Positions 4,294 to 61,913 of a stretch of 64,000 nt of DNA are shown here, piece by piece. Where the stretch lies: assembly GCF_020921035.1 (NCBI RefSeq), contig NC_063154.1, positions 1,860,001-1,924,000 on the forward strand. Reading direction: 5' to 3'. The stretch is from Rhodamnia argentea. Lineage: Eukaryota > Streptophyta > Magnoliopsida > Myrtales > Myrtaceae. A program made the position numbers and the translations under genes. A model generated the notes under the pieces. That model had not been told where the DNA came from. It saw nothing but the letters and a program-made list of their open reading frames with translations, and did no database searches. Position 1 is the first letter of the stretch. Each line of letters begins with the position of its first letter.

Positions 4294-5470
4294 CTCGTAG
4301 AATAATAACTAAGATCACCTCGTCGTGCATAATCTATCGTATATCAACATATTTCACGTAATTCTCCTCTATGTTTATCTTGTTACTGCTGACTGAATAT
4401 TCTTCGATTATCTTACTATTATGAGCTAATGCGCTAACCTCATTTATCCAAATTGTCATTAACGGATGTGTTTTTTTCCCCTCAATAGATCAACTTAGCA
4501 AAACCGCAAAACTTGTGACTTGAATCTTGAATTTAGGAGATCCCTTTAATAGATGAGACATATAAAGGGGAAATTCTTCCCCGACAGTACTATTAGGAAC
4601 GGTACAATTTCAATCATAGACTTACACCATCACCGCGTTTTTTCATAAAACACTCATTGATTGGGAGATCGTAGGGTTAGAAATAACCGATGCTCAGACT
4701 GTCAGGCTAGTAGTTTTCTATGTAAAACAAGTTTCTGTTTTTAGTATTATCTAATCTGTCATCAAGGTATGCGTATTCAATAGATTGATTTAACCAAATC
4801 ATAAAACTCGTGATCTGAATTTTGGACTTAAGAGTGACCGTGATTGATAAATTTCGTTAGGGACATTGAAGTTTTAAATTACTAATAACTTAGTATGGAT
4901 GTGTCTATTCATAACAGTCCATCGATCCTATAGACTAGGCCCATATAGACGATTGATTGATTATGAAAGGTGAATCCACCTAATTAATGCTTCAGTCGAT
5001 ATTAGTCCACATCATGCATAGATCATGTAATAACTTCTCGATCATTTTGATGCATGACAGGTCGATTTGCCTTTTTTAATATGTCGATAGTAATTGCAAG
5101 ACATTTAACTGCAAAACAAAGATGTTAGAAAAGAGTGTCATGCAGAAGCAGAAGTCCTTGCAAGAAGAACAACACACCTAGCCTCGTTAGTCTTCGAGAA
5201 CTAAACATGCCATGTCTACTCTCCCAGAGGGAGAGAAGAACGAAATCATAGAGGCACAGGGAAAGATCAGTACTGAGAAGAACACCCGAGAAGGACAACC
5301 AAAAACTGATTACCGTCTGAATAATCTGCTTCATTCTATAAAACTTCTAAAACAGCAAAACCATCTGTCTCTGTCCGGGTCATTATGTAGAATTCAAATG
5401 GAAAGCAAAAAAAGAAAAAGTTGGAAGAAAAATCAATCTATTGAGGGTGGTTTTCTGTAACCAAAGAGTG

Positions 5471-5866
5471 CTAGTTCTTGAGACTGTTGGTGCCTTTACT
5501 GGGTCCGGAAGGCGGCGGAGACCCTTTAGGAAGGAAATTCAAGAACATGGGTCCGAATGTTCTGGACCCTCCTCCTCTTCTCGGAAGACCGGAAGCTGTA
5601 GGGCTGGAGATCGACCTCGAACCCATCTCCTCACCGGGGACAATTATGCCGAGCTCAGTCACGAGGCCGGCAGGGATCACGACAGCCTCGACTGCGTCGC
5701 CGCGGCGGGGAAGAGCGAGATACAAGGCGGAGGCCGGCTCAGGATCAGGTGAAGTTGGCGGCGGAACGATGCGATTCAAGGGCCTGGCAGCTGATGCAAC
5801 GGAAAGAGCTTGCCAAATTGTGAGCATGATCACGAGAAGGATCTGGGATTTGCATGAGGCTGCCAT
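5471..5866 (-). CDS. IDA-like (IDL) secreted peptide precursor, copy 1
   Basis: Intronless precursor of 131 residues, probably secreted and processed into a small signalling peptide. The N-terminus (MAASCKSQILLVIMLTIWQ, then LSVASAARP) is a signal peptide. The middle is low in conservation. The C-terminus reads FLNFLPKGSPPPSGPSKGTN followed by SLKN. That block matches the EPIP region of INFLORESCENCE DEFICIENT IN ABSCISSION (LPKG, then P-rich, S-A/G-PSK); known IDA peptides act in the apoplast on HAESA/HSL receptor kinases. The SGPS core also occurs in the related PIP peptides. Canonical IDA ends R-H-N; here it is G-T-N and the peptide is one residue shorter. An upstream in-frame Met at 6007 would bury the signal peptide. 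The start at 5866 aligns with the sister copy at 12715. A GA repeat (about 5914-5934) lies in the presumed leader. Confidence 0.8.
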   Translation of the reverse strand: MAASCKSQILLVIMLTIWQALSVASAARPLNRIVPPPTSPDPEPASALYLALPRRGDAVEAVVIPAGLVTELGIIVPGEEMGSRSISSPTASGLPRRGGGSRTFGPMFLNFLPKGSPPPSGPSKGTNSLKN

Positions 5867-7419
5867 TGAAAAGCTCTTTGTTTTGCATACACACGAAGAA
5901 GTAAAATCTGAAGAGAGAGAGAGAGAGAGATCCGAAGATGGGGGGGAAGTGTTTGCTGTGAGGACGAAGGAAGGTTTGGTCGTTCTTAAAGGAGGAGATG
6001 GAGACAAACCCGTTTTATTCTATTTGGCTCGGAAGAAGATGTCAACGGTTGACACCCGCGGATGCTCCACGCGCTCTCGGTGGTGGCGCGGTCACCTAAG
6101 CAATTGCGCGTGGGACCAAAGGGTTTTAAATCCTGCGATTGGTCTCATCTTCCCTCTATATTTCCCAACTCTTATGCTTAACTGTTAACTTTCACATCGG
6201 AGCCTCAAATTTTTTGATTATGTGCATGAATCCCTGCGTTCATACCCTGAGCATTTACGGTGCGGTTCACAAAATATATATGTCCATATAGAATTTCAAA
6301 TCGTTTTCTTGTTAAATGTTATTTAAAAGAGATTCTCGTCAAATGTTGAATGTGCGTTTCATACTCCCTTTCTACAGCAAAGCACGGGATCTCACTTCCC
6401 GATGAGGTAACTGGGGTCTTAAGCGAGCAGCTCCCTAGATACCATAAAGTTTTTATAATTTTAACCCATATTTCAGTTCAATTGGAATTTGGTTATTCAC
6501 CAAATAAAAATGCAAAGGTAAACTACATGAGTAATACGAGATAATCGGCTGGCATGTAACATTGTGGTCTTGCAACTCGAGAGAAGATGAGCCGAGGAAT
6601 TATGTAAAATAGAACTAACTAATACATTGAATGAAAAACTGGCGTCTGTGCATGTAATTTGTTTACTTGTATTGTTCCTCTGCGTTGTTATATTGTCTGA
6701 CAAAGATTTTTTTTTCTTTTTATCGAAAGTTAATCACATGAACTAAACTTAACCCTAGAGCAAAAATCTTTTCTCCTGCTCTCACAAAACCCGTATCATC
6801 AATTCCACCCTGGAGCAAAAATCTTGTAATTGAGAGTTCTAACAAAGAGGTGCAAGGTGCTGATTATAATGATATTTTCTGTTGGATGTAACTCTAGTTT
6901 AAAGGTGAATCAAGACAATTCCCGTGTCTCGATTTCTCTTTTTCATCCTTATTTTCAATTTCCCTATGTTTATGCGACTAACCCCAACATTAATTATATA
7001 AAGACACATACATACATACATGTATTTGTAAGATATCGGGACGTTTCCATGCATTATAAAAAGCATTGAGAGTCGAAAGCATTCCCTACATTTTGAAGAA
7101 CTTATGGTTTATTACTTGACTTTAGCACTTTCAACTGCATTATTCAAATCATTATGAAAATTGAGAATACGGCAAGGTGGTGGAACAGAAAAAACTAAAG
7201 AGGGCGCGTGGGGGGGAGGGGGGAGAGTTGGGGAATGAAGAAAGAGTAACGTAAGACGTCAAGAAATTTGACTCTCAAGGAACGAAGGAAGTGGACAGAT
7301 GGGGCCCACCTTGGACTCGTCCACTGAACGACGCCCGCGTTGTAGACCCGCCACTAAACCGGGTCAAGCACACCAAAGCCATACCTCTCTCCCTGCCGTA
7401 TTGATGCATCGACAAGTTA

Positions 7420-8133
7420 GGGGTGTGCAACCGGATCGAATTGAACCGGAACCGAACTGCCTAAAAAACCAATTCGGTTCTCGATTCCAACGTGAATATG
7501 TCCGCTTCTCGATTTCAAATTTTTGGAATCGGTTTGAACGAGTCCGGTTTTCGATTATAAGTAAAGATCCATCCGAGAAACCAGATCGGTTTTGGAACCG
7601 GTTCGTAGCTACAATAAAAAGACATAATTTCTCTAAGTTAAGCTTAACTTTGTCTCACCTCATTTGTTTTTTCTCCATTCTTTATCGCCTCTCTCTATTC
7701 CTTGGAGCAATATTTTTAGGGATGAATGAAGTATAGGTTTAAAAATTTATTTTGATGAATTGGGAACAAAGTTTTATAATTTATGTTTTAATTAGATTAC
7801 GCGTTTGAAATTATTATTATTCATTGTTTATAGTTATGCATGATCACCTGTTTGGCGGATAGGAATTTATGTTGACCATATTTTACTTTGAACCGCTTTG
7901 TTGCTCGTATTATTATGTTGTATTAAATGAAATCACAAAAAGGAAAGGAAAAAAAATGTTCTCGAGTAGACCCTAAAATTGGATCGGAAAGACAAGGTAG
8001 GTTCTAGAGCCGGTTCCATAAAAACTGGGTAGATTCTATGCTCCAAAAACTGAGAATCGGTTATAATAAGGTAGGTTTCGGGTTCTAGGTTTGGAACCTA
8101 CCTACCCAAGAACCGATTATCCCTAATTAACAT
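7420..8133. mobile_element. hAT-like non-autonomous element (tentative)
   Basis: Left end TAGGGGTGTGCAACCGG, and right end whose reverse complement begins TAGGGATAATCGG. Both arms are rich in 'gaaccggt'-type motifs in opposite orientation, as in many plant hAT-derived elements. No clean 8-bp TSD was found. Unit 2 has the matching left part (about 13943-14128) but lacks the remaining roughly 680 bp, so the element predates the duplication and unit 2 lost part of it. Non-coding. Confidence 0.45.
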
Positions 8134-8873
8134 GTCCATTGGCTTGGGATAATAGCGATCGAAAGAGGATTACTCATTTTGTTCTTTTCTTTTCCCCCCC
8201 AAACTGAAATCACGTCGCCAGCCAACGGATATCTAACTAATTCGTATTCTGGACATTTATTATCGTCCATGCAACTGTAATGACGATGAGGTCTTCAACC
8301 TTAGACGCGCATGTCTCTGGATGGATTGCATTTTTACGGCTCAGATTGAATATCTCACATGCCTAGCAACTCTTATGTTTAAGCACTTAAAAAGGTAGCA
8401 ACGGCTATTTGTTTTCTCTGTCATTTTTACATTTTACGTTTGCTTGTCGGAAATGATGTCAAGCTCGCCAGCACAACCTTGTCATGTCGTCAATGTACCC
8501 GGGGCCGGAGATTTGTCGAATCCAGACATTTCGCAAATGGATTGAGGGTTTTTTTTTTTCTTATATCGACGTGTGATTGGGATTCAAACCTAGACTCAAA
8601 CTTTTCCAAGAAACTTGAGAGGGAGCCTTGAATAAGCTAACCACAATCATACTTTACTTAATGAGAAGGAGAAGAGAACATAGCCTCCCCTCATGTTCTC
8701 GCAGGCGCCGATCTGATTCCATTAAATTAGAATTGGTAATTTTCAGTCCGGTTCCCGATTCTAAAGGTGGAACCGCTCACCGGGACAGACCGGACTGGAT
8801 TGATTATTTTTCTTTAAAGGTTTCAATTTTATTTCTTGATTTTTTTTTTGTAAGGAAATCACTTAAACTCTTA

Positions 8874-9401
8874 GGCTGCGTTTGGTCGTCGGGATTTCTG
8901 GTCAGAATAGGATTGAATATGATAGGATAAGAAATCTAGGGATTTGGCCATATCCTATCTATCATTTAGTGAACTACGGATTTAAAGTTGGATATTCTCA
9001 TATCCTATCATATCCCGCATTTGGTAGAAACCGTATATCAATATAAATGACATTTATGCCCTATGTGATGCTATGAAATATTCCGATCTTATTACTATAA
9101 AAATAATGTTCTCATACAAAAAAAAAAAATTGAAAATGTACACATTTTATTAGATTTTCAAACCTCTTTGTAAAAAATAAAATAAAATGAAAATAGAAAC
9201 AAATGAGACAAGAAAGTTAGCTTTTATATGACGGATAAAAGAAATCTTATCCGACCTTATCCTACCCCCTCCCCTAGGATTTTTTTATCCGGGTTATATC
9301 CCCCCTATATCCGACATTATACTATCCGGGACACCTACCAAACACGGGATAGGATAAAACATATCATATCCCGAGTTTTATACGGACGACCAAACGCAGC
9401 C
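8874..9401. mobile_element. PIF/Harbinger (Tourist-like) MITE, 528 bp, in unit 1 only
   Basis: Perfect 17-bp terminal inverted repeats (GGCTGCGTTTGGTCGTC at 8874-8890, its complement at 9385-9401), flanked by TTA at 8871-8873 and 9402-9404. Unit 2 has the uninterrupted site (ctcttagttattaagg at about 15240-15255) with a single TTA, which confirms the 3-bp target duplication and shows insertion after the segmental duplication. No coding region. Confidence 0.92.
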
Positions 9402-9440
9402 TTAGTTATTAAGGATACTTCTCAATGTCATGACGTAATT

Positions 9441-9466
9441 ATTTAGCCAAAGATTGAGAAAGGAAT
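9441..9466 (-). ncRNA. Degenerate U2 snRNA 5'-end fragment, left arm, unit 1
   Basis: Read on the minus strand from 9466 it gives ATTCCTTTCTC, then AATCTTTGGCTAA, resembling the first 25 or so nt of U2 (ATACCTTTCTC..TTTTGGCTAAG) with several changes. A minus-strand AATAAAAG box at 9491-9498 and a USE-like GTCTCACATCG at 9535-9545 lie upstream in the order expected of plant snRNA promoters. It is probably a pseudogene. Confidence 0.55.
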
Positions 9467-9534
9467 GCTTTGGGCAGGCACATGGCTTGGCTTTTATTCA
9501 CACCCTCTTTTACGGCGGTCTCTCCCTGCCCATT

Positions 9535-9545
9535 CGATGTGAGAC
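9535..9545 (-). promoter_or_regulatory. Upstream sequence element (USE) of a plant snRNA promoter, left arm, unit 1
   Basis: Minus strand reads GTCTCACATCG, one mismatch from the plant USE consensus RTCCCACATCG. It precedes a TATA-like AATAAAAG by about 36 bp and a U2-like start further downstream. Confidence 0.6.
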
Positions 9546-9670
9546 TCTTGGCATGTCTGGATTGTCTCTGTTGTTGTGTCCAGCCTTCTATACGAACTCC
9601 TTCAACGTGGGACTCTCGGCTAGTCTCTGTTGTTATATCCAGCCTTCCAAGTGAACGCCTCAAGCCAAGA

Positions 9671-9681
9671 GTCCCACATGG
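9671..9681 (+). promoter_or_regulatory. USE-like element, outer copy, right arm, unit 1
   Basis: GTCCCACATGG, 10 of 11 matches to RTCCCACATCG. It belongs to a roughly 56-bp local tandem duplication (about 9660-9715 and 9716-9771) that placed a second, more degenerate USE nearer the TATA box. Confidence 0.6.
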
Positions 9682-9726
9682 AACGGCCACATAGAGATTG
9701 TAAGAGATGGGGGCCTTAAGCCAGGA

Positions 9727-9777
9727 GTTCTATATCGAACGGCCACGTAGAGATTGTAAGAGAGGTGGTGAATAAAA
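9727..9777 (+). promoter_or_regulatory. Degenerate USE plus TATA box of the right-arm U2-like gene, unit 1
   Basis: GTTCTATATCG (9727-9737) is a decayed USE. It is followed after 33 bp by AATAAAAG (from 9771), and the U2-like start is 32 bp beyond that. A USE-TATA spacing of about 33-34 bp is the known Pol II setting for plant U2-type genes (about 23-24 bp specifies Pol III), so the geometry supports a real ancestral snRNA promoter. Confidence 0.6.
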
Positions 9778-9802
9778 GCCAAGCCATGCGACTGCCCAAA
9801 GC

Positions 9803-9847
9803 ACACCTTTCTCGGCCTTTTGGCTAAGATCAAGAGTTGTATTTGTT
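9803..9847 (+). ncRNA. Truncated U2 snRNA-like sequence, right arm, unit 1
   Basis: Matches nt 1 to about 45 of U2 snRNA: ACACCTTTCTCGGCC, then TTTTGGCTAAGATCAAG, then GTTGTATTTGTT, where U2 has the branch-point-recognition region GTAGTATCTGTT. Similarity stops there. Twenty nt later AATTTTTGA (9868-9876) looks like an Sm site. The rest of U2 (stem-loops II-IV) is absent. U2 normally base-pairs with the intron branch site in the spliceosome. This copy cannot be a normal U2; a pseudogene or a short chimeric RNA are the options. Confidence 0.75.
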
Positions 9848-11020
9848 GAGTGAGGTCATGCTCAAACAATTTTTGAAGTGTCTTGATTTTTTTGAAGGTT
9901 AAAAGAAAAGACTTAACTTTAAAGAAAGTCGAAAATGCTCAAATAAAATGTAACTTGGTTCTTGAAATTCGGTGCATCACCGCAGTCTTCCATCGGTTTC
10001 CATTGGATCAATCCAGTCCTAGGATAAGTTGGTTTGGAAACCGGTCCTACTCATTCGATTCCCGATTCCTAGATGAGACCTAGGAACCAGACCGACTGAC
10101 CACCCTTGATTTACATCACTATAAAACAAAACGAAGCTTATTACCAATGACTGGTCCATTCTTTCTTATGTTCATTTTTATAAGCTAATTTATCCTTTCG
10201 TTACTTTAAAATAGAACGAGTACGTTATGTAGGAGGTCGTTGCTTGAATGTAATTTGACATGATGACAAATAACTACAAGATTTGAATTCTTTGTAAATG
10301 TTGAATTGAATCCAAATAAAACTACAACAGTTTTATGTTCACATTTGCATCAAATGACATTTACTAATTCATAGAACAGATGGACAGGATAAGGGAGAGT
10401 TCATATGTGGATTTCCTAAGAGAAATGGAATCTGAACATGGAAAGAAAATTTTGCTCTAATTTTGGATGAGAGAGTAAGATTAAGAAATGACCAAAAAAA
10501 AAAAACTTGGTATGAAGACAGTTAAAAAGATTATGTTTTTGACATTATCCAAATTTCATCAACGGATGCATTTTTTTCCCCTCAATAGATCAACTCAGCA
10601 AAACCGCAAAACTTGTGATTCGAATCTTGGATTTAGGAGAGCCCTTTAACAGATGAGATATATAAAAGGGAAATGCTTCTCTAACAGTATTATCAAGGAT
10701 GATACAATTTCAACCGTAGACTCACGCATCATCACCCCATGTTTTGCATAAAACACTCATTGATTGAGAGGTCATATGGTCAGAAATAACCGACAGTCAA
10801 ACTGTCAGGCTAGCAGTTTTCTATTTAAGAAGAGTTTTTTTTTTTTGGCATTATCCAATCTGTTATCAAGGTATGCGTTTTTATTCAATAGATCGATTTA
10901 GCAAAGCCATGAAACTCGTGATCTGACTCTTGGACTTAAGAGCGACTGCGATTAGTAAATTTCGTCAAGGGCATCAAAATTTTAAATTACTAATAACTTG
11001 GTATGAATGTGTTTATTCGT

Positions 11021-11741
11021 AGGCCTAACACTCGAAAAAACCTCCAACTTTATCATTTATGATAATTATATCCATTTTTTTTCACAAAAAAACCTCAAAC
11101 TTTGACTTTTATCCCAATTCTACCGGTCTAATACCCAAAAAAATTCAACTTTAGCATCCATCCCAATTATATGCGAAACTTTTTTTTAGTCCCAATTCTA
11201 CCCCAAACTTTTATTTTTATCCCAATTCTACCACATTTAGCCTTCCATCCATAATCGCTATTAGTTAATCCTACGTGGCTCGACTTTTCTCGCCGAACTT
11301 ACCAATGAATCTTCAAAATCTAAAAACAATAGGTTTTAGAGATGACAAGAATTTAGATCGTTCGTCCAAATATTTCCATGTTTAGCCGTTCTTTGGGCTG
11401 TTGAGTACCGAAGAGAATGAAAAGTGCTATTTTGAGCGACTCTATATCTCCCGGCAATATATAGGAAAAACAAATAACAAAAGAGAAGTTCGATAATTTT
11501 TTCATGTCAGCTTTGCTAAAATGTAATTCATTAACAACGTGAAAATGCCACGTAGGATTAACTAATAGTGATTATGGACGAAAGGCTAACGGTGGTAAAA
11601 TTGGGACAAAAGTAAAAGTTTAAGGTAGAATTGGGATAAAAATAAAAGTTAGAGATTTTTTATGAGACAAATATTTTTTTGTTTGACATAATTGTCACAA
11701 ATACTAAAGTTGAAGTTTTTTTTTTGGTATTGAGCCATATT
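11021..11741. mobile_element. Foldback element in unit 2 only, about 720 bp
   Basis: The left end (ggcctaacactcgaaaaaacc, then aactttatcatttatgataatt) is complementary to the right end (aattgtcacaaatactaaagtt ... attgagcc). The arms hold repeats of 'cccaattctacc' and its complement. The corresponding place in unit 1 (about 4909-4925, 'tgtctattcataacagtcc') is uninterrupted, so the insertion followed the duplication. An imperfect 9-bp TSD is possible (tattcgtag / tattcatgg). Non-coding. Confidence 0.65.
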
Positions 11742-12316
11742 CATGGTCATATAGACCAAGCCCATATAGACCATATAGACGATCGATTGATCATGTAGTT
11801 CTGAAGGTGAATCCATCTAATTAATGCTTATGGCCGATGTTAGTCCATATCATGTATAGATCATGTAATAATTTCTCGATCATTTTGAGATATGACAGGT
11901 CGATTTGCCTTTTTTTAACATGTCAATACTACTTGCAAGACATTTAACAGCGAAACAAAGATGTTTTAAAAGAGCGTCATGCAGAAGCAGAAGTCCTTGC
12001 AAGGAAAACAACACACCTAGCCTCGTTGGTCTTCGAGAACTAAACATGTCATGTCTGCTCTCCAAGAGGGAGAGAAGAACAAAATCATAGAGGCACAAGG
12101 CACAAGCAAAGCATCAGCACTGAGAAAAACACTGGAGAAGTCAAAACTAAAAACTGATTATCCTCTGAATAAGCTGCTTTTATTGTATAACTTGTATATC
12201 AGCAAAAACCGTCTGTTTCTGCCCTGTCATTACGTATGATTCAAATGGAAAGCCAAAAAGAAAAAGTTGGAAGAAAAATCTATCTATCGAGGGTGGTTTT
12301 GTGTAGCCAAAGAGTG

Positions 12317-12715
12317 CTAGTTCTTGAGACTGTCGGTTCCTTTACTGGGTCCGGAAGGCGGCGTAGACCCTTTAGGAAGGAAATTCAAGAACATGGGTCC
12401 GAATGTTCTCGACCGTCCTCTTCTCATCGAATGACCCCAAGCTGTCAAGCTGGAGCTCGACCTTGAACCACCCGTCTCCTCGCCAGACACAATCATGCCG
12501 AGCTCAGTCACGTGGCCGGCAGGGATCGCAATGGTCTCGGCCGCGTCGTCGCGGCAGGGAAGACCGAGATTCAAGGCAGAGGCCGGCTCGTGACCGGATG
12601 AAGTTGGCAGAGGAAAGATGCGGTTCAAGGGCCTGGCAGCTGATGCAACCGAAAGAACTTGCCAAACTGTGAGCATGATCATGAGAAAGATCTGGGATTT
12701 GCATGAAACTGCCAT
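12317..12715 (-). CDS. IDA-like (IDL) secreted peptide precursor, copy 2
   Basis: Intronless, 132 residues, paralogue of the gene at 5471-5866 through the tandem duplication. The signal peptide is conserved (MAVSCKSQIFLMIMLTVWQ, then SVASAARPLNRI). The middle (about residues 34-98) has many substitutions and one extra Gly. The last 31 residues differ at two positions only: the peptide core is KGSTPPSGPSKGTD where copy 1 has KGSPPPSGPSKGTN. Thus the mature region is held nearly constant while the propeptide drifts, as expected for a functional peptide hormone gene. The terminal Asn of IDA (Asn in copy 1) is Asp here. A GA tract is in the leader (about 12757-12775), and a TATA-like 'ctatatttccc' (minus strand) upstream is shared by both copies. 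Confidence 0.8.
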   Translation of the reverse strand: MAVSCKSQIFLMIMLTVWQVLSVASAARPLNRIFPLPTSSGHEPASALNLGLPCRDDAAETIAIPAGHVTELGMIVSGEETGGSRSSSSLTAWGHSMRRGRSRTFGPMFLNFLPKGSTPPSGPSKGTDSLKN

Positions 12716-13339
12716 TGGAAAGCTCTTCGTTTGAATGCACTCGATGAAGCAAAATCTGAAGAGAGAGAGAGAGAGTGATCCGAAGATGGGGGGAATGTTT
12801 GCTGTGAGGACGAAGGCAGGTTTTTGGTCTTTCTTAAAGGAGGAGAGGGAGACGAACCCCGTTCTATTCTATTTGGCTCGGAAGAAGACGTCAACGGTTG
12901 ACACATGCGGGAGCTCCACGCGCTCTCGGCGGTGGCGCGGGGTCACCTAAGCAATTGCGCGTAGGACCAAAAGGGTTTTAAATCCTGCGATTGGTCTCAT
13001 TTTCCCTCTATATTTCCCAACTCTTATGTTTAACTGTTAACTTTCACATCCGAGCCTCAAATTTTTTTGATTATGCGTATGAATCCCTGCGTTCATACCC
13101 TGAGCATTTACAGTGTGGTTCACAAAACATATATGCCAATATAGAATTTCAAATTGCTTTCTTGTTTAATGTTATTTAAAAGAGATCCTCGTTAAATGTT
13201 GAATGTGCAGTTTATATGCCCCTTCGACAGCAAAGCATGAGATCTCACTTCCCAGTGAGCTAGTGGGGGGTCTCAAGCGAGCAGCTTCCTAGACATCAGA
13301 TAATTTTTATAATTTGAACCCATATTTTATTGATAGTTT

Positions 13340-13345
<6 letters not shown>

Positions 13346-13373
<28 letters not shown>
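13346..13373. repeat. (AT)n microsatellite, unit 2
   Basis: Uninterrupted AT dinucleotides of about 28 bp, absent from the matching position in unit 1. Confidence 0.95.
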
Positions 13374-13374
<1 letters not shown>

Positions 13375-14353
13375 CAGAGATGTGCAATGTGCTGATTATA
13401 ATGACATCTTCTGCTGGACGTAACTCCAGTTTAAAGGTGAATCAAGATAAATCTCGTGTCTCGATTTTTCTTTCTTGTTTTTATTTTCAATTTCATGGTG
13501 TTTGTGCAACTAACCCCAATATCAATTATATAAAGACACATACAAACACGTATTTGCAAGGTATCGGGACGTTTTCACGCATTATAAAAAGCATTGAGAG
13601 TCGTAAAACATTCCCTACATTTTGAAGAACTTATGGTTTATTACTTGACTTAAGCACTTTCAATTGCATTATTCAAATCATAATGAAAATTGAGAATAGG
13701 GCGAGGTGGTGGAAAAGACTAAAGAGGGCGCGTGGGGGGAGGAGTGAGAGTGGGGGGGAATGAAGAAAGAGTAACGTAAGACGTTAAGAAATTTGACTCT
13801 TAAGGAAAGAAGGAAGTGGACAGACGGGGCCCACCTTGGACTCGTCCACTGAACGACGCCCGCGTTGTAGACCCTCCACTAAACCGGGTCAAGCACACCA
13901 AAGTGGCAAAGCCATGTCTCTCTGCCGTATTCATGCGTCAACAATGGGTGTAAAACCGGAACCGGACCGTCTGAAAAACCAATCCGGTTACGTGTCCAAT
14001 TCCCGATTTCAAATATTTGAAATCGGTTTAAACAGGTCCGATTTTCGATTCCAAGTAAAGACCCTTCTGAGAACAAGACCGATTTTGAAACCGGTTCATA
14101 GCTATAATAAAAAAAACATAATTTGTCTAAGTTGGATTGTATTTTTACGACTCGGATTGAACATCTCATATGCATCGTAACTCTTACGTTAAGCACTTAA
14201 AAAGGTAGCAACGGCTAGTTGTTTTCCCTGTCATTTTTACATTTTACTTTTGCTAGTCGGAAATGATGTCAAGCTCACCGGCGACCCGATCATGTAGTCA
14301 ATGTACTCGGGGCCGAAGATTTGTCGAATCCAAGCATTTCGCAAATGAATTGA

Positions 14354-14853
14354 GGCTGCGTTTGGTAGTCGAGATAAAATTCATGATGTGTTTGGTGCTT
14401 GCCCATAATTGGACAAAGTGAAATATAGCTAGGATAAAATTATCCTAAGGAAGAGGTGGGATAGAGGTGGATAGGATTTCTAACTACCTTATTATAAGTT
14501 TTTTTTTTCGAATAACAATTTTCTTGAATTAATAAAATTAAAATAGTATTAGAATATAATATATGATTTCTAATATAAAAAATTAAAATTAAAAATAAAA
14601 ATAATTAAATAAATAAGTTAAAAAGAAAAGGAAAAATAGTGAAAAAATAAGCCAAAAAAAAAAAAATGAAGTAGGCAATAGTGTAATGAGATGTTATTAC
14701 CATCTCTGTTTGTGTAATTTTTAGGACAATAGATAAAATAGTATGTGAAAATATCCGATTTTATTCACCAAACAATGGATATGATATAGCAAAATCCCCG
14801 CATTTCATATCCAATCCTATTCTGTCTAAAAATTCAGATGACCAAACACAGCT
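14354..14853. mobile_element. PIF/Harbinger (Tourist-like) MITE, 500 bp, in unit 2 only
   Basis: Left TIR GGCTGCGTTTGGTAGTC; right end GATGACCAAACACAGCT is its imperfect complement. It is flanked by TGA (14351-14353) and CGA (14854-14856), a decayed 3-bp target duplication. Unit 1 has the uninterrupted site near 8540-8552. Same family as 8874-9401, but with more degraded ends, so probably older. Confidence 0.8.
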
Positions 14854-15281
14854 CGAGGATTTTATTTTTTTTTTATATCGACTTGCGATTGGGATTCAAA
14901 CCTAGACTAAAAATTTTTCCAACAAACTTGAGAGGGAGCCTTGAATAAGCTAACCACAATCATACTCGCCTTGAATAAGCTAACCACAATCGTACTTTAC
15001 TTAATGAGTAGGAGACGAGAACATGGCCTCCTTTATTTCTAGGGGTAAGCAAAAGGAACCAACCTCATGTTCCCGCGGGGGCCGTTCCGGTTCCATTAAA
15101 TCGGAATTGGTGACTTTCAGATCGGTTCTCGATTCTAAGGGTAGAACCGCTTGCCGGGACAGACCGGACCGGATCGATTATTTTTCTTTAAAGGTTTTAA
15201 TTTTATTTCTTGATCTTTTTTGTAAATAAATCATTTAAACTCTTAGTTATTAAGGATACTTCTCAATGTTGTGATGTAATT

Positions 15282-15308
15282 ATTTAGCCACAAGATCGAG
15301 AAAGGAAT
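15282..15308 (-). ncRNA. Degenerate U2 snRNA 5'-end fragment, left arm, unit 2
   Basis: Minus strand from 15308 reads ATTCCTTTCTCGATCTTG, then TGGCTAA, close to U2 nt 1-25 and a little better preserved than the unit 1 counterpart. A minus-strand ATAAAAG box (15333-15339) and a USE-like GTCTCACATCA (15364-15374) are upstream. Confidence 0.55.
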
Positions 15309-15363
15309 GCCTTAGGCAGGCGTATGGCTTTGCTTTTATCAACAACCTCCCTCCTTGCCCATT

Positions 15364-15374
15364 TGATGTGAGAC
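15364..15374 (-). promoter_or_regulatory. USE-like element, left arm, unit 2
   Basis: Minus strand GTCTCACATCA, two mismatches from RTCCCACATCG, at the same relative place as 9535-9545 in unit 1. Confidence 0.5.
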
Positions 15375-15499
15375 TCTTGGCGTGTCTGGATTGTCTCTGT
15401 CGTTGTATCTAGCCTTCCATACAAACGCCTTCGACGTGGGACTCTTGGCTTGTCTCTGTTGTTATGTCCAACCTTCCATGCGAGCACCTCAAGCCAAGA

Positions 15500-15560
15500 G
15501 TCCCACATTGAACGGCCACACAGAGCCACACAGAGACTGTAGGAGAGGTGGCGAATAAAA
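15500..15560 (+). promoter_or_regulatory. USE plus TATA box of the right-arm U2-like gene, unit 2
   Basis: GTCCCACATTG (15500-15510) matches the USE at 10 of 11 positions. The TATA-like AATAAAA starts at 15554 and the U2-like start lies 32 bp beyond. USE-TATA spacing is 43 bp, against 33 in unit 1, because of a 10-bp tandem duplication (ccacacagag repeated at about 15516-15535). Confidence 0.65.
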
Positions 15561-15585
15561 GCCAAGCCATGCAACTGCCTAAAGC

Positions 15586-15630
15586 ACAGCTTTCTCGGCC
15601 TTTTGGCTAAGGTGAAGTGTAGTATTTGTT
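15586..15630 (+). ncRNA. Truncated U2 snRNA-like sequence, right arm, unit 2
   Basis: Matches U2 nt 1 to about 45: ACAGCTTTCTCGGCC, then TTTTGGCTAAGGTGAAG, then TGTAGTATTTGTT, which keeps the GUAGUA branch-site-pairing motif intact. An Sm-like AATTTTTGA is at 15651-15659, exactly 65 nt from the start as in unit 1. The remainder of U2 is missing. Confidence 0.75.
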
Positions 15631-16261
15631 AAGTGAGGTCATGCTCAAACAATTTTTGATGTATTTTGATTTTTTTTTAAGGTAAAGAGGAAAGACTTGA
15701 CTTTAAAGGAAGTTGAAAATACTCAAATAAAATGTAATTTGGTTCTTGAAATTCGGTGCATCACCATAATATTCCATCGGTTTTCATTGAATCGATCGGT
15801 TTGGGAATCGGTCCTCTTGGTCCGATTCCCGATTCCTAGGTGAGATCTAAGAACCGGACAGACCGATCACCTTGATTTATATCACTACAAAACAAATCGA
15901 AACTTATTACCAATGACTGGTCCATTCTTTCTTATGTTCATTCTTATAAGCTAATTTATCATTTTGTTACTTTAAAATAGAACGAGTACGTCATGTAGGA
16001 GGTCGCTGCTTAAAAAATAACTGCAAGATTTGAATGTTTCTTTTCTTCGCAAATGTTGAGTTGAATCTAAATAAAACTACAACAGTTTCATGTTCACATT
16101 TGCATCAAATGACATTTAATAATTCATAAAACAGATGGACAGGGATAAGGGAGAGTTCATATGTGGATTTCCCAAGAGAAATGGAATCTGAACTTGGAAG
16201 GAAAATTTTGCTCTAATTGTGGATGACAGAGCAAGATTAAGAAATGACCAAAAAAAAAAAA

Positions 16262-19200
16262 CAGTGTCTTAGAAAATTACAAGTTATGATTAAATTAACA
16301 ATGTTGCGACTTAGGAAAGAGTAATAATTGTTCTTGAAAGAAACAGTAAGTTGTGATTTTAAACCCTTCTATGAATGGAAAAGGATTTCGACCAAAACAA
16401 AAATTGAATGGAAAAGGATTTATTGGCCAATTCTATATCTTAAAATGTTGTGGATTAGGAGTGATTAGGGAAAATCGACACCTTGTTGTCCCTCTCCAAA
16501 TGAAAAACCACTAGATGTAGTCAAAGGACGGAGAAGTCACTAAAAGATTGTTCATGCTATCGACACACGGTGTTCTATATGTACATTGAAACCTTTCTTT
16601 TTATACGAGTAGATATTTTTATAAAATCTCCGCCGTTCCAACAGGAGCAATCAATCGAAAAGTGATTCAATTGGACACTAAAAATAGTTTCAGTCCTTAT
16701 AAACATTCAAATAATAGGTCCTTGAACCTATGTCACCACCATGGTGCGGCATATTAAACACCGTGCAAATCGGCAATTTCTTGATCCTGTGTAAATTCTT
16801 AGGTGCCCCAAACTTTATAAGCATGTGGAAATGTTATTTGAATGGGAAAAACCCTATTCCAATTTCCCCACCAAAAAGAGACTTGCAATCACTGACGTCA
16901 CACTGTCACTCACACCACTCAACCGGTTCTCGTAGTTCTCCCAATAATGGGCCGCGACTTAATTGGACCGGGCCCAACATAAAAGGCCCACTTAATCTGT
17001 GTCGTTTAAGCCCCTCATTGATGGGGGCTAATTTCCGTCTGCAGAAGCATTTGGACAAAAGGCACTTTCATATGTAAAAAGTTATTATGAGTGCTATGGA
17101 AGTCGCTCTAACATTGATTTATCGGGTGCAAGGTTCGACTCCCCGCTGTCACGGCACTCTCTCGATCTCATTCGGTGGTTCGGGATAAGCTACATAGATA
17201 CCCTGGTTGCTTGTCGGGGTCTATAGACCCGTTTGGTTCACCCGTATCCCATGATAAGTTTGCGATGATCCAATATTAAGGTACAGAGTAGAGGTGTCAA
17301 CGGGTGGTTGGCTCGGGTCGACTATGGTCCGACATATATTGACTCATTTAACTCGTTTTGACCCATTTTCATAAGTAAAAACATAATGACTCATGCTCGA
17401 CACAACCCGCACTCTATCTGTATTACTTAAACACTTCTAAATTAAACAAAATCATGGAATATTTGTTTTTTAGAACTTGTTGAGAAAAATGATATTATTA
17501 AAATAATTTCATGCAATACAAATCTATGGAAAACTTTGTAATTTTATTTTTATGTAAAAAATTAAATAAATTTTAAAAAATGTATTTTTTAATTATTTTA
17601 TTTTATTTTCGTTTTTCTGTGGCTACCGGAAACGGCGACCAGCAGCAGATGATGGGTGGCAGTCGGCGGCGGCGGTCCACTTCTTGAATAGTTTTTACAT
17701 TTTGTAATTTTAATTTTCTTTCTTTTTAAAATACATAAAATACAAATCAATATACTTGTGACCCAAGTCAAGTCAAACTCACTTAATTTTTTAGATGGGT
17801 CGAAAATGGATCCGACTGTGCGACCCATTTTTAAGCCATCAAATCCAACTTTAACTTTTTGGATCCATTTTCACTTGGCCTTTTAAAAACTTACAATCTA
17901 TATATAACCCAATTGTACAAAATATGAGTAAGAAAATGGGCCATAGGCCCATATTCGCGGCTCCGATACAGAGTGATGCTGAGTCTATCAAATTCCAGTC
18001 TACGAAATGAGTAGTTGATGCGGAAAGGAGTGCTAGAATCAGAACTCCGTTTTTTCCTCTGAATCCCGCTTTTGCCGGAATCAATCACGTAACATTATGA
18101 CTAAAGAAAAGGGCTAAAGTCCCGCTAAGACATCTGCTTTATCGAACTCCTATCACTCCGAATCCAGATCGGCATCTTCCCCACGATCTCTGTCGCCACA
18201 GATTCTCAGCTTTCCTCTCTTTTTCAAGAGAGAGATGTACCCACAAGGCCACAAGATAATATATATATAATTCATTATTCTCATCTTGAAGTTCATCCAG
18301 AAAGATATCCTTTTTCTCTTTGCTCATTCTCTTGAGAAGAGGGTACGGGCCGACCCATGTCGCGTAACGATCTGCGGCGAGCTCCTAGAACCTTTTGGAT
18401 CGGGGTAAAATGCCCAGTAGAAGGAACAAGACGCGCGTCGGCAGCTGCGCAACATCCTCCCGAGTCATCGTTCTCACGGCCCATTGTTAAGAAAAATAGC
18501 ATTATGCAAGAGGTTAGCAGTATGCAATGTGGATAAGATTGTGGATATCGGTACAAATATGTTAGCTTTGATGAACTCAGTGAAAGTCGTGGCGGCGATG
18601 CGGATCTAACTCTTGAGCGGCTGAGAAATGGCACCCTCAACATCAGTTATTGACTTGCTACATATCGGGTGGATGGAACTTAAAATCCTTTTTCATTAGT
18701 CTTTTTGGCTCATCATGGCATTGAATTCCTGGAAATGAGTTGCGAATGTGGCTTTTCCTTCGTGTTCGCTGGATCAGAATGAATGTCGCTGTCTTGGAGA
18801 TCAAGGCCATGTGATGGAGGATGAGGCGAAAAAGGACAACTCATCGGAAATTGGAAAAGGACAACGTGGCCAGAAACAGAAGCAATGTCCCCGTCCAAGG
18901 ACTTGACAGAAAACTGCTCCCTTCTGCTTTTGGCGGAAGCAGCAGCTGCAGCACCATGTTCTGTGGTCACGGGCTTTCTGAATGGCATTACAAGTCACAT
19001 GGCCCCGTCCATACAAACAGTACCCATAGGTTGAAAATTTCCAATTTTTCTTCGTAATTCTTTAATTCGTAGTGGGTCTGCTTTTCCTCGAGGGACTTGT
19101 CTTGCTATGTCCTTAAAGCTGTGATCTTTTTCTTTCGCTTAGCCTGAAATCAAAATTTGCGCTCACTTTCATCTTCTTTTGTGTTTGGCCATGTTTGCTT

Positions 19201-35029: not shown

Positions 35030-35910
35030 CCTAAATTATGTCCGTTATTAACACCAAAAATTTCAAACTTTTATTTATGCGATATATTTACTTTAATTTT
35101 ATTTTTTTGTGACGCAAAACTCCAAACTTATACACGTGCGATACATTTATCCCAAAGTATTATTTTATCACTCCAAAATTTAAATTTGTAGGCATGTGGC
35201 ACATTTACTCTAAATTTTGAGATAAATATGTCACACAAATACAAATTTAAGATTTTTGATATTGCAAGAAAAGAATTTAGGATAAATGTATCGGGAAAAA
35301 TGTTCAAAAAGTCTAAAACCCATTGCATTGGTGCCAATTCAATCCTAAACATTTTTTCGATGCCAATTAAGTCATAAAGATTTTGCATTGATGCCAAGTT
35401 AGTTCTAAATATTTTATTGATGCCAATTGGTCCTAAACCTTTTGGATTTATGCCAATTCAGTCGTACCATTTTTTGCATCTGAAATAATATTTGACATTG
35501 TCCACGCCAAGCGCCAATGTGCCACGTAGGACAATCGATGTTCACATCGGCGATTTTTTTATCAAAATTGATCAGATTAACTTAATTGGTACTAACGCAA
35601 AAAATTTATAACTAAATTGGCACAAATCTAAAGGGTTTATGACTCAATTGGCATCAATAAAATGTTTAGTCCTCAATTTGCATCAATAAAAGGTTTATGA
35701 CTCGATTGGCACTAATACAAAAGGTTTAGGACTGAATTAGCATGAAAAAAATGTTTAAGACTAAATTGGCACAAATGCAATAGGTTTAAGACTTTTTTGA
35801 CACTTTTCCCTAAATGTATCACGCTAGTACAAGTTTGAGATTTTTTGTGTTAAAAAAAAAATTTTGAATTGAAGGTTTCATAGTAGATATAATTTAAGAT
35901 TTTTGGTAGC
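35030..35910. mobile_element. Outer inverted-repeat element, interrupted by a younger one
   Basis: The left end (aaaatcctaaattatgtcc) matches the complement of the right end (aaaaatcttaaattatatc). Arms carry 'aatttcaaacttttatttatgcgatatattt' type repeats in opposite orientation. A second element (35293-35810) lies inside with its own TSD, so the outer one is older. Boundaries are approximate. Confidence 0.6.
35293..35810. mobile_element. Foldback MITE (MULE-like family), 518 bp, perfect 10-bp TSD
   Basis: Starts GGGAAAAATGTTC and ends GACACTTTTCCC, flanked on both sides by TAAATGTATC (35283-35292 and 35811-35820). The arms consist of repeated 'cattggtgccaattcaatcctaaac'-like units and their complements. 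A 9-11 bp TSD is typical of Mutator-like transposition. Confidence 0.9.
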
Positions 35911-53064: not shown

Positions 53065-53368
53065 TGAGAAAATTGTCCCAATAGTCCTAAACCTATTGCA
53101 TGACAGTTAATTCAGTCCTAAAACTTTCAAATTTTGTCAATTTAGTCTTAAATCTTTTGCCAAGTCAGTCATAAACCTTTCAATCGTGCCAATTCAGTCC
53201 TAAACCTTTTGATGATTTTGCAATTTGTCAACATCATCCTTGCAGCCAATTATCCAACCAATAGGTTTATGATTAAATTGGAAAAACTTCAAAAAGTGGT
53301 ACAAATGAAAGGTTTATGACTGAATCGGTTGTCGTATAATAAGCTTAGGACTTCTTGCACAATTACTG
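53065..53368. mobile_element. Foldback MITE (MULE-like family), short, 304 bp, 9-bp TSD
   Basis: Flanked by CTGAATTCT at 53056-53064 and 53369-53377. The left arm holds 'gtcctaaacctattgca' and the right arm its degenerate complement ending in 'ggacttcttgcacaatt'. It lacks the GC-rich core of the longer members. Confidence 0.8.
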
Positions 53369-61464: not shown

Positions 61465-61913
61465 GAAAATATTACAAAAAAAGTCCTAAACATATTGTAA
61501 TTATGCCAATTCAATCCTAAATATTTTCTTTTTTTGACAATTCATTCTAAACCTTTTGCATTTATGCAAATTCAATTCATCCGGCTAATTTTGGCCGACT
61601 TATTGACGTGGATGCTCGCCGACGATGATGTGATTGATCTCACTGCCCCTCACCTTTAACCGGTCGCCATCGGTGATCGACTGGAGGAAGAAGGAGAAAA
61701 AAAAGGAAAAAAAGGAAAAAAATAAATAAAAATTTGATAAAACACAAATAAAAATTGCCACATTAGCGTCAGCAGCGTCGGTCGATCAAAATTGGTCGGA
61801 TGGACTGAATTTGTACAAATGCAAAATATTTATGACTAAATTGGCAATAGAAAATTTTAGGATTGAATTGACATAATTGCAGTAGGTTTATAACTTTTTT
61901 GATGATTTTCTCG
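61465..61913. mobile_element. Foldback MITE (MULE-like family), 449 bp, perfect 9-bp TSD
   Basis: Flanked by ATTTTCTTT at 61456-61464 and 61914-61922. Begins GAAAATATTACAAAAAAAGTCC and ends with the complement-like 'aacttttttgatgattttctcg'. GC-richer core near 61610-61670. Confidence 0.85.

Follow-up and report, generated by a model that had tools for sequence, protein, structure and literature searches.

A palindromic pair of truncated U2 snRNA gene ends in Rhodamnia argentea, probable cargo of an old hAT-type transposon

U2 gene ends and promoter boxes in the window

In Rhodamnia argentea, a short palindromic region raises the question of how two truncated U2 snRNA gene ends came to lie back to back. 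The region, called unit 1 here, belongs to a stretch of 64,000 nucleotides that was analysed as a whole and is referred to below as the window. An earlier note on this DNA had proposed two origins for the region, that is, the decay of a head-to-head pair of U2 genes or a small promoter-bearing element. The features found in the window are listed in Table 1.

The note had described two outward-pointing U2 5' ends with USE and TATA elements in both orientations between them, and all of these were present. It had also given the U2 sequence present as about the first 45 nt; this was correct for the right arm, but the left arm reaches only about nt 25. The left-arm U2 of unit 1 is weak when taken alone (local score 18), and clear left-arm U2 heads are carried by other copies of the region. 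The right arm matched the Rfam U2 model at 9803-9915 with 44.0 bits (E 2e-7, permissive scan), and thus the U2 hit is a significant one. Because this score falls slightly short of the gathering score, 46, the Rfam scan of the window at the curated thresholds listed nothing. In a BLAST comparison with L001, a U2 gene from this genome, the right arm gave 51 bp of 90% identity (E 2.6e-14). The clear U2 similarity stops near nt 45, and no full-length U2, with its Sm site and 3' end, was recognised. The permissive scan also gave a miRNA family, which we rejected, since its 24.1 bits stand against a gathering score of 98 and the match reflects the palindrome.

The spacing of the boxes was then read from the sequence. 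The distance of 33 bp between USE and TATA reported for the right arm is real, but the USE copy at that distance has three mismatches. A better USE lies farther upstream, displaced from the TATA by a 56-bp tandem duplication that was seen in unit 1 only. The distance of 32 bp from TATA to start was reproduced, as AATAAAA starts 32 bp upstream in both arms of unit 1. When the motif RTCCCACATCG was searched in the 64-kb window with at most one mismatch, four sites were obtained (9671+, 9545-, 15500+ and 15442-). All of them fall in unit 1 or in a second copy, unit 2, and they are not independent because the two units are duplicates.

Unit 2 was matched in its U2 region at 15282-15653 by a DNA search with unit 1. 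Both units lie within a tandem duplication of about 6 kb and their flanks are homologous, and we therefore regard them as copies of one insertion. Unit 2 has retained its left end, TAGGGGTAAGCAAAAGGAACC, and its right end, ...GATCACCTTGA; in unit 1 the right end is at 10109 and the left end is missing. The long USE-TATA spacing in the right arm of unit 2 apparently results from a local duplication of about 10 bp. Unit 1 also contains a 528-bp MITE, which we take to be PIF/Harbinger-like.

Some other features of the window were also observed. Two duplicated frames for a small protein, 5471-6019 (-) and 12317-12868 (-), have a signal-like start and the end ...NFLPKGS(P/T)PPSGPSKG.... This end recalls IDA-like peptides; no Pfam match was found for the frames up to E 0.1. 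Minisatellite-like arrays are present at 35323-35793, 53132-53180 and 61484-61576, with units of about 29-31, 60 and 23 bp, respectively. They have short pieces in common (TAAAC, GCCAA and similar) and are possibly one repeat family.

Table 1. Features of units 1 and 2 and of their neighbourhood (window positions)
Feature	Position	Strand	Remark
Tandem duplication of about 6 kb, element and neighbourhood	4444-16262	.	4444-10506 / 10545-16262, matched in pieces
Unit 1, remnant of duplicated element	8690-10109	+	by comparison with unit 2; start approximate
Unit 1, 528-bp MITE	8874-9401	.	GGCTGCGTTTGGTCG inverted ends; TTA at 8871-8873 / 9402-9404; absent from unit 2
Unit 1, left-arm U2 nt 1-25	9443-9466	-	one gap, degenerate; local alignment
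Palindrome	9449-9820	.	arms 9449-9513 / 9756-9820, 85% complementary over 65 nt
Unit 1, left-arm TATA (AATAAAA)	9492-9498	-	from sequence; spacing to USE 36
Unit 1, left-arm USE GTCTCACATCG	9535-9545	-	1 mismatch
Unit 1, second minus-strand USE-like site	9603-9613	-	2 mismatches
Unit 1, better USE GTCCCACATGG	9671-9681	+	1 mismatch; shifted 56 bp by tandem duplication
Unit 1, proximal USE copy, decayed	9727-9737	+	3 mismatches; 33 bp before TATA
Unit 1, right-arm TATA (AATAAAA)	9771-9777	+	from sequence
Unit 1, right-arm U2 nt 1-45	9803-9847	+	41/45 identical to U2 head used
Unit 2, left target-site duplication TTTATTTC	15032-15039	.	8 bp; 7/8 identical to 15876-15883
Unit 2, 836-bp hAT-like non-autonomous element with U2 cargo	15040-15875	+	both ends present
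Unit 2, left-arm U2 nt 1-25	15284-15308	-	degenerate
Unit 2, left-arm TATA-like GATAAAA	15334-15340	-	from sequence; spacing to USE 23
Unit 2, left-arm USE-like site	15364-15374	-	2 mismatches
Unit 2, second minus-strand USE-like site	15432-15442	-	1 mismatch
Unit 2, right-arm USE	15500-15510	+	1 mismatch; spacing to TATA 43
Unit 2, right-arm TATA (AATAAAA)	15554-15560	+	
Unit 2, right-arm U2 nt 1-45	15586-15630	+	40/45 identical to U2 head used; U2 model 40.8 bits
Unit 2, right target-site duplication TTTATATC	15876-15883	.	

Dispersed copies, their ends and a hAT relative

The whole genome (346.7 Mb, 74 contigs) was searched for copies. The DNA search with unit 1 gave at least 28 matching pieces, the covariance-model search for U2 at least 26 matches, and the search with a full-length copy as query at least 33 pieces; all counts of this census are lower bounds. 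The U2 cargo was found at 16 or more places on eight contigs (three each on C5, C7 and C6, two each on C1 and C2, and one each on C3, C4 and C11). About 13 of the 16 places are independent insertions, because the window pair and a trio on C6, each with shared flanks, were counted once. The alignment of the copies indicated a family element of about 0.8-1.0 kb (805-966 bp without inserts). The region thus recurs on other contigs, where it lies inside an element that has terminal inverted ends and 8-bp duplications.

Since the two arms are alike and either one can match both halves of the query, the copies were read individually. By alignment and reading, both arms were recognised in 12 of the 16 places (W1, W2, L047-L051, L054, L055, L063, L064 and L066), and no left arm was found in L052, L053 and L056. 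The left U2 head of L065 is interrupted, with other DNA in its place. The copies L063-L065 (C6:18419976, 19015238 and 19311602) have shared flanks and represent a single U2-bearing insertion in three segmental duplicates. In L052 (C2:33.076 Mb), a left-type end is situated near right-arm promoter sequence without a left arm; this copy may be either a deletion derivative or a single-arm element.

The element ends are TAGGGGTGAGC.../...CACCCCTA. In general form, the left end reads TA(G/A)GGGTGAGCAAAAGGAACC and the right end ...GATCACCCCTA, and both are altered in old copies. The terminal consensus of hAT elements is TAGGG... / ...CCCTA. Short terminal inverted repeats of this type, TAGGGGTGA(G/T)C, were found at both ends of the family element, and they are imperfect in old copies.

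The flanks were compared in the 11 elements of which both ends could be set (six with U2 and five without). An 8-bp target duplication, as is typical of hAT elements, was perfect in two of them, at C1:3.718 Mb (ATAATACC) and at C5:19.649 Mb (ATAACAAA). Three further elements agreed at 7/8 positions and two at 6/8, L057 and L062 agreed at 5/8, and no duplication is visible in L055 (3/8) and L058 (2/8). The 11 elements, of which L063 and L064 derive from a single insertion, agreed in 64 of 88 flank positions; when the right flanks were permuted 20,000 times, the mean was 34.9 and the highest value 57.

Family members that carry the same ends and no cargo were also found. With at most two mismatches, a terminal 22-mer was present at 52 sites genome-wide and at none in the reversed control, and two of the 52 sites belong to known cargo-bearing copies. 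In addition, 16 matches to the full-length query cover its outer parts only (within about 1-221 or 676-849). Six of these were examined; five were small elements without U2 (L057-L060 and L062, 330-475 bp), and one was the right end of a relative of 5 kb.

This relative, C7:11461773-11466773, is 5,001 bp long, has the same kind of ends and is flanked by a 7/8 duplication (GTGCTAGG/GTGCTGGG). Among 150 scored PF05699 matches, which were compared with the element ends by eye, one lay 2.4 kb from the right end just mentioned. A frame of 275 aa in the relative contains PF05699 (E 2.4e-26) and PF14372 (E 4.5e-17), so that the ends of the family are shared with an element that carries hAT transposase domains. 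Introns or damage have broken the remaining coding region into short frames. Weak matches to Acetyltransf_1 and DUF1877 in the same element were taken as chance. From the ends shared with the U2-less elements and with the relative that has hAT domains, we conclude that the family is of the hAT type and that the U2 region is its cargo. That the U2-bearing copies are non-autonomous is judged from their length.

Two observations were made around these relatives. In L067/L061 (C7:11461773-11467899), a second, very similar right end lies 1.13 kb downstream of the 5-kb relative, as would be expected of a partial copy, either tandem or nested. At C1:33439746-33440003, a second hAT dimerisation domain is present about 0.8 kb from a 22-mer at C1:33440792 that resembles the family end.

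Donor U2 genes and the origin of the palindrome

In order to find the source of the cargo, the 100 nt or so that precede the U2 start were compared between 17 arms and 12 U2 loci of the genome, the coordinate of each locus being the start of its U2 model match. The right arms of L048, L052 and L066 and the left arms of L047, L048, L049 and L066 were left out of the scoring, and at least three of the 12 loci are degraded or odd (C11:15637881, C1:28501036 and C1:28499135). At C1:28501036 a good U2 head is followed by a body that soon departs from U2.

Nine of the ten right arms scored best with the promoter of C6:23326022, and one (L054) with that of C1:28502641; each of the two promoters has its closest relative in the other. 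In an earlier comparison with nine promoters, C1:28502641 had been taken as the right-arm donor, and this was superseded by C6:23326022 once three further U2 loci were added. The left arms fell into two types. In the palindromic copies (type A), the two left arms that were scored, both from the window, were best with C6:23326022, and for the remaining type A left arms the judgement relied solely on reading of the alignment. In the non-palindromic copies (type B), all five left arms were best with C1:27613567. With 100 shuffles and nine of the 12 loci covered, the z-scores were 5.2-16.6 for C1:28502641 against the ten right arms and two type A left arms, and 4.5-14.2 for C1:27613567 against the type B left arms.

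The left and right arms of type B thus match different U2 lineages, meaning that two different U2 promoters are opposed in these copies. That is, the elements carry fragments of host genes with recognisable donors. In the window copies, the left promoter is of the right-hand lineage. Type A would most simply be explained by a copying of the right arm over the left one, as far as about U2 nt 25.

We therefore think it very probable that the palindrome is cargo of an old non-autonomous hAT-type transposon, and that capture from two U2 genes, dispersal, replacement of one arm and local duplication together account for the present structure. The following course of events is proposed. An ancestral element would have captured the promoters and the first 38-45 nt or so of two U2 genes in head-to-head arrangement, as the arm matches suggest. 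Cut-and-paste transposition then spread the element, as the ends, the 8-bp duplications and the dispersed copies show, and the transposase presumably came from full-length relatives with the same ends, one 5-kb hAT relative being present. In the type A branch, a copy of the right arm probably took the place of the left promoter and left U2 head, giving the palindrome. One type A insertion in this neighbourhood was finally doubled by the tandem duplication of about 6 kb into units 1 and 2, as the homologous flanks show. Against the transposon account stand the elements in which duplications are not visible, the missing left end of unit 1, the copies in which the left arm was not seen (L052, L053 and L056) or has an interrupted U2 head (L065), and the U2 of the type A left arm, which is degenerate and has only 25 nt.

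Of the two origins proposed in the earlier note, the small promoter-bearing element is the one that agrees with the dispersed copies, their inverted ends and their target duplications. The decay of a head-to-head pair at the locus itself, by which two full U2 genes would have lost their 3' parts in place, does not explain why the same truncated pair recurs at scattered places, enclosed by the same ends and by 8-bp duplications. Moreover, the U2 genes that we found stand alone or form clusters of one strand, on C1 and C8. The type B copies, in which two U2 promoter lineages are opposed, do fit an ancestral pair, and they fit a fusion of two elements as well. We consider local decay very improbable on this balance; a head-to-head U2 pair may instead describe the ancestral cargo. 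No uncaptured head-to-head pair was seen in the genome, and for this reason the captured pair is deduced from the arms. The U2 model matches in same-strand clusters lie at C1:28.497-28.503 Mb and C8:8.540-8.560 Mb.

U2 RNA is known to serve as a source for retroposition, and a retropseudogene or a SINE headed by snRNA might be imagined on that ground. The note had dismissed retropseudogenes because they lack promoters, and our results uphold this: the upstream promoter is included in the copies, and U2 is internal to an element that is bounded by terminal inverted ends and 8-bp duplications. A U2-derived retroelement is thus scarcely conceivable. Equally hard to credit is the insertion of a Dada-like transposon into a U2 gene, which would make U2 the flank and not the cargo. 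Transposons that target U6, U1 and tRNA genes exist, as described in PMC3706591. Here, however, the terminal repeats enclose U2, the flanks of the elements compared above are mutually unrelated except those of L063 and L064, the duplications are of 8 bp and not 6-7 bp, and the domains of the relative are those of hAT. The note had also considered that the palindrome might belong to a transposon whose likeness to U2 is coincidental. It does belong to a transposon, but the likeness extends over the promoter and is homology.

Promoter conservation and relation to known systems

The transposon origin of the palindrome leaves the question of whether its promoters may still act. According to PMC545797 and PMC9845283, plant U2-type snRNA genes have the USE RTCCCACATCG and a TATA near -30. 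In plant Pol II snRNA genes the USE and TATA are four helical turns apart, and in Pol III genes one turn less (PMC9845283). The USE-TATA distance was 33 bp in 11 of 13 right arms, the exceptions being unit 2 (43) and L063 (28), and 33 bp after an 11-bp USE fits the Pol II class as described there. Such an anatomy would allow the snRNA-type Pol II machinery to transcribe outward.

To evaluate constraint on the promoters, mean pairwise identity was calculated from 12 copies, with L053, L064 and L065 outside the alignment and unit 1 omitted since it duplicates unit 2. The values were 0.67 upstream of the USE, 0.71 in the USE, 0.72 in the USE-TATA spacer, 0.77 in the TATA, 0.71 in the TATA-start spacer and 0.77 in U2 nt 1-45. 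Past the U2 head, the identity decreased to 0.62 at nt 46-90 and 0.48 at nt 91-130. Since most copies were found through their similarity to U2 or its promoter, these figures, including the 0.77 of U2, may be inflated for the cargo. Comparing the USE (0.71) with the spacer (0.72), the test gave no support for promoter constraint among the 12 copies. A present function is thus doubtful, because conservation in the USE boxes does not exceed that in the spacer. A loose pattern of the plant 3' box was found in three of six elements that carry U2, one of which has a foreign insert, and in one of five elements without U2, a result of little weight.

As an addition to the transposon account, it can be supposed that the hAT family mobilised a two-way Pol II promoter made from two U2 genes, and that some copies are still recognised and transcribed, sending capped RNAs with a U2 head outward. 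The joint presence of USE, TATA, 33-bp spacing and U2 start in most right arms speaks for this, as does the somewhat higher identity of the TATA and U2 nt 1-45 compared to that of the spacers (0.71-0.72). On the other hand, the identity of the USE is not above that of its spacer, two or three mismatches were found in seven of the 12 right arms with a readable USE, and the spacings deviate in the right arm of unit 2 and in the left arms of the window copies (36 in unit 1 and 23 in unit 2). In our estimate such continued recognition of a mobile promoter is unlikely. As to the window copies, current promoter activity is unlikely, and the window element is most likely a non-functional fossil today. 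In the copies outside the window, promoter activity is unproven.

The element resembles several known systems in part. Like the Pack-TYPE hAT elements described in PMC8903248, it is non-autonomous, has hAT-type ends and 8-nt duplications, and contains fragments of host genes. The abstract of that paper describes the capture of coding DNA, and the cargo here is snRNA-gene promoters with U2 5' ends; in the main text of PMC8903248 as examined the words 'snRNA' and 'promoter' do not occur (whole words, plurals uncounted). The same source proposes that DNA is acquired by tandem insertion and re-mobilisation, and such a route could have joined the two U2 fragments. With plant U2-type genes, as far as the two sources above describe them, the cargo shares the USE, the TATA, the Pol II-class spacing in most right arms, the U2 start and the first 25-45 nt. 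It differs from them in that no U2 body or 3' end was recognised, the arms stand back to back in a transposon and the boxes are decaying. With Dada (PMC3706591), the element shares an association of a DNA transposon with snRNA genes; Dada inserts into such genes with duplications of 6-7 bp, whereas the element here carries snRNA pieces and inserts elsewhere with 8 bp. The USE-driven miRNA loci of Cuscuta (PMC10226582, a commentary) are similar in that an snRNA-type USE promoter is found outside snRNA genes. Those loci are expressed and consistent with Pol III, whereas most right arms here have a spacing of the Pol II class.

A limited literature search found no report of a transposon with an snRNA promoter. 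The hAT family identity and the Pack-TYPE kind are already known, and the snRNA-gene promoter cargo would be what differs. The dispersed copies and their target duplications indicate that a DNA transposon can capture and spread snRNA-gene promoters, beyond coding fragments. This gives a concrete route by which snRNA-type promoters may arrive beside other genes, a question raised by the Cuscuta USE loci. For annotation, the finding is a warning that a truncated U2 match can be transposon cargo even when its promoter is good. Should all copies be dead, as their decay suggests, the family is a fossil with an unusual passenger. If, against our expectation, some copies are still recognised, their insertions would start capped, U2-headed RNAs into the flanks, and read-through of the palindromic type A copies could also yield hairpin RNAs. 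Such transcripts would be raw material for new non-coding RNA genes.
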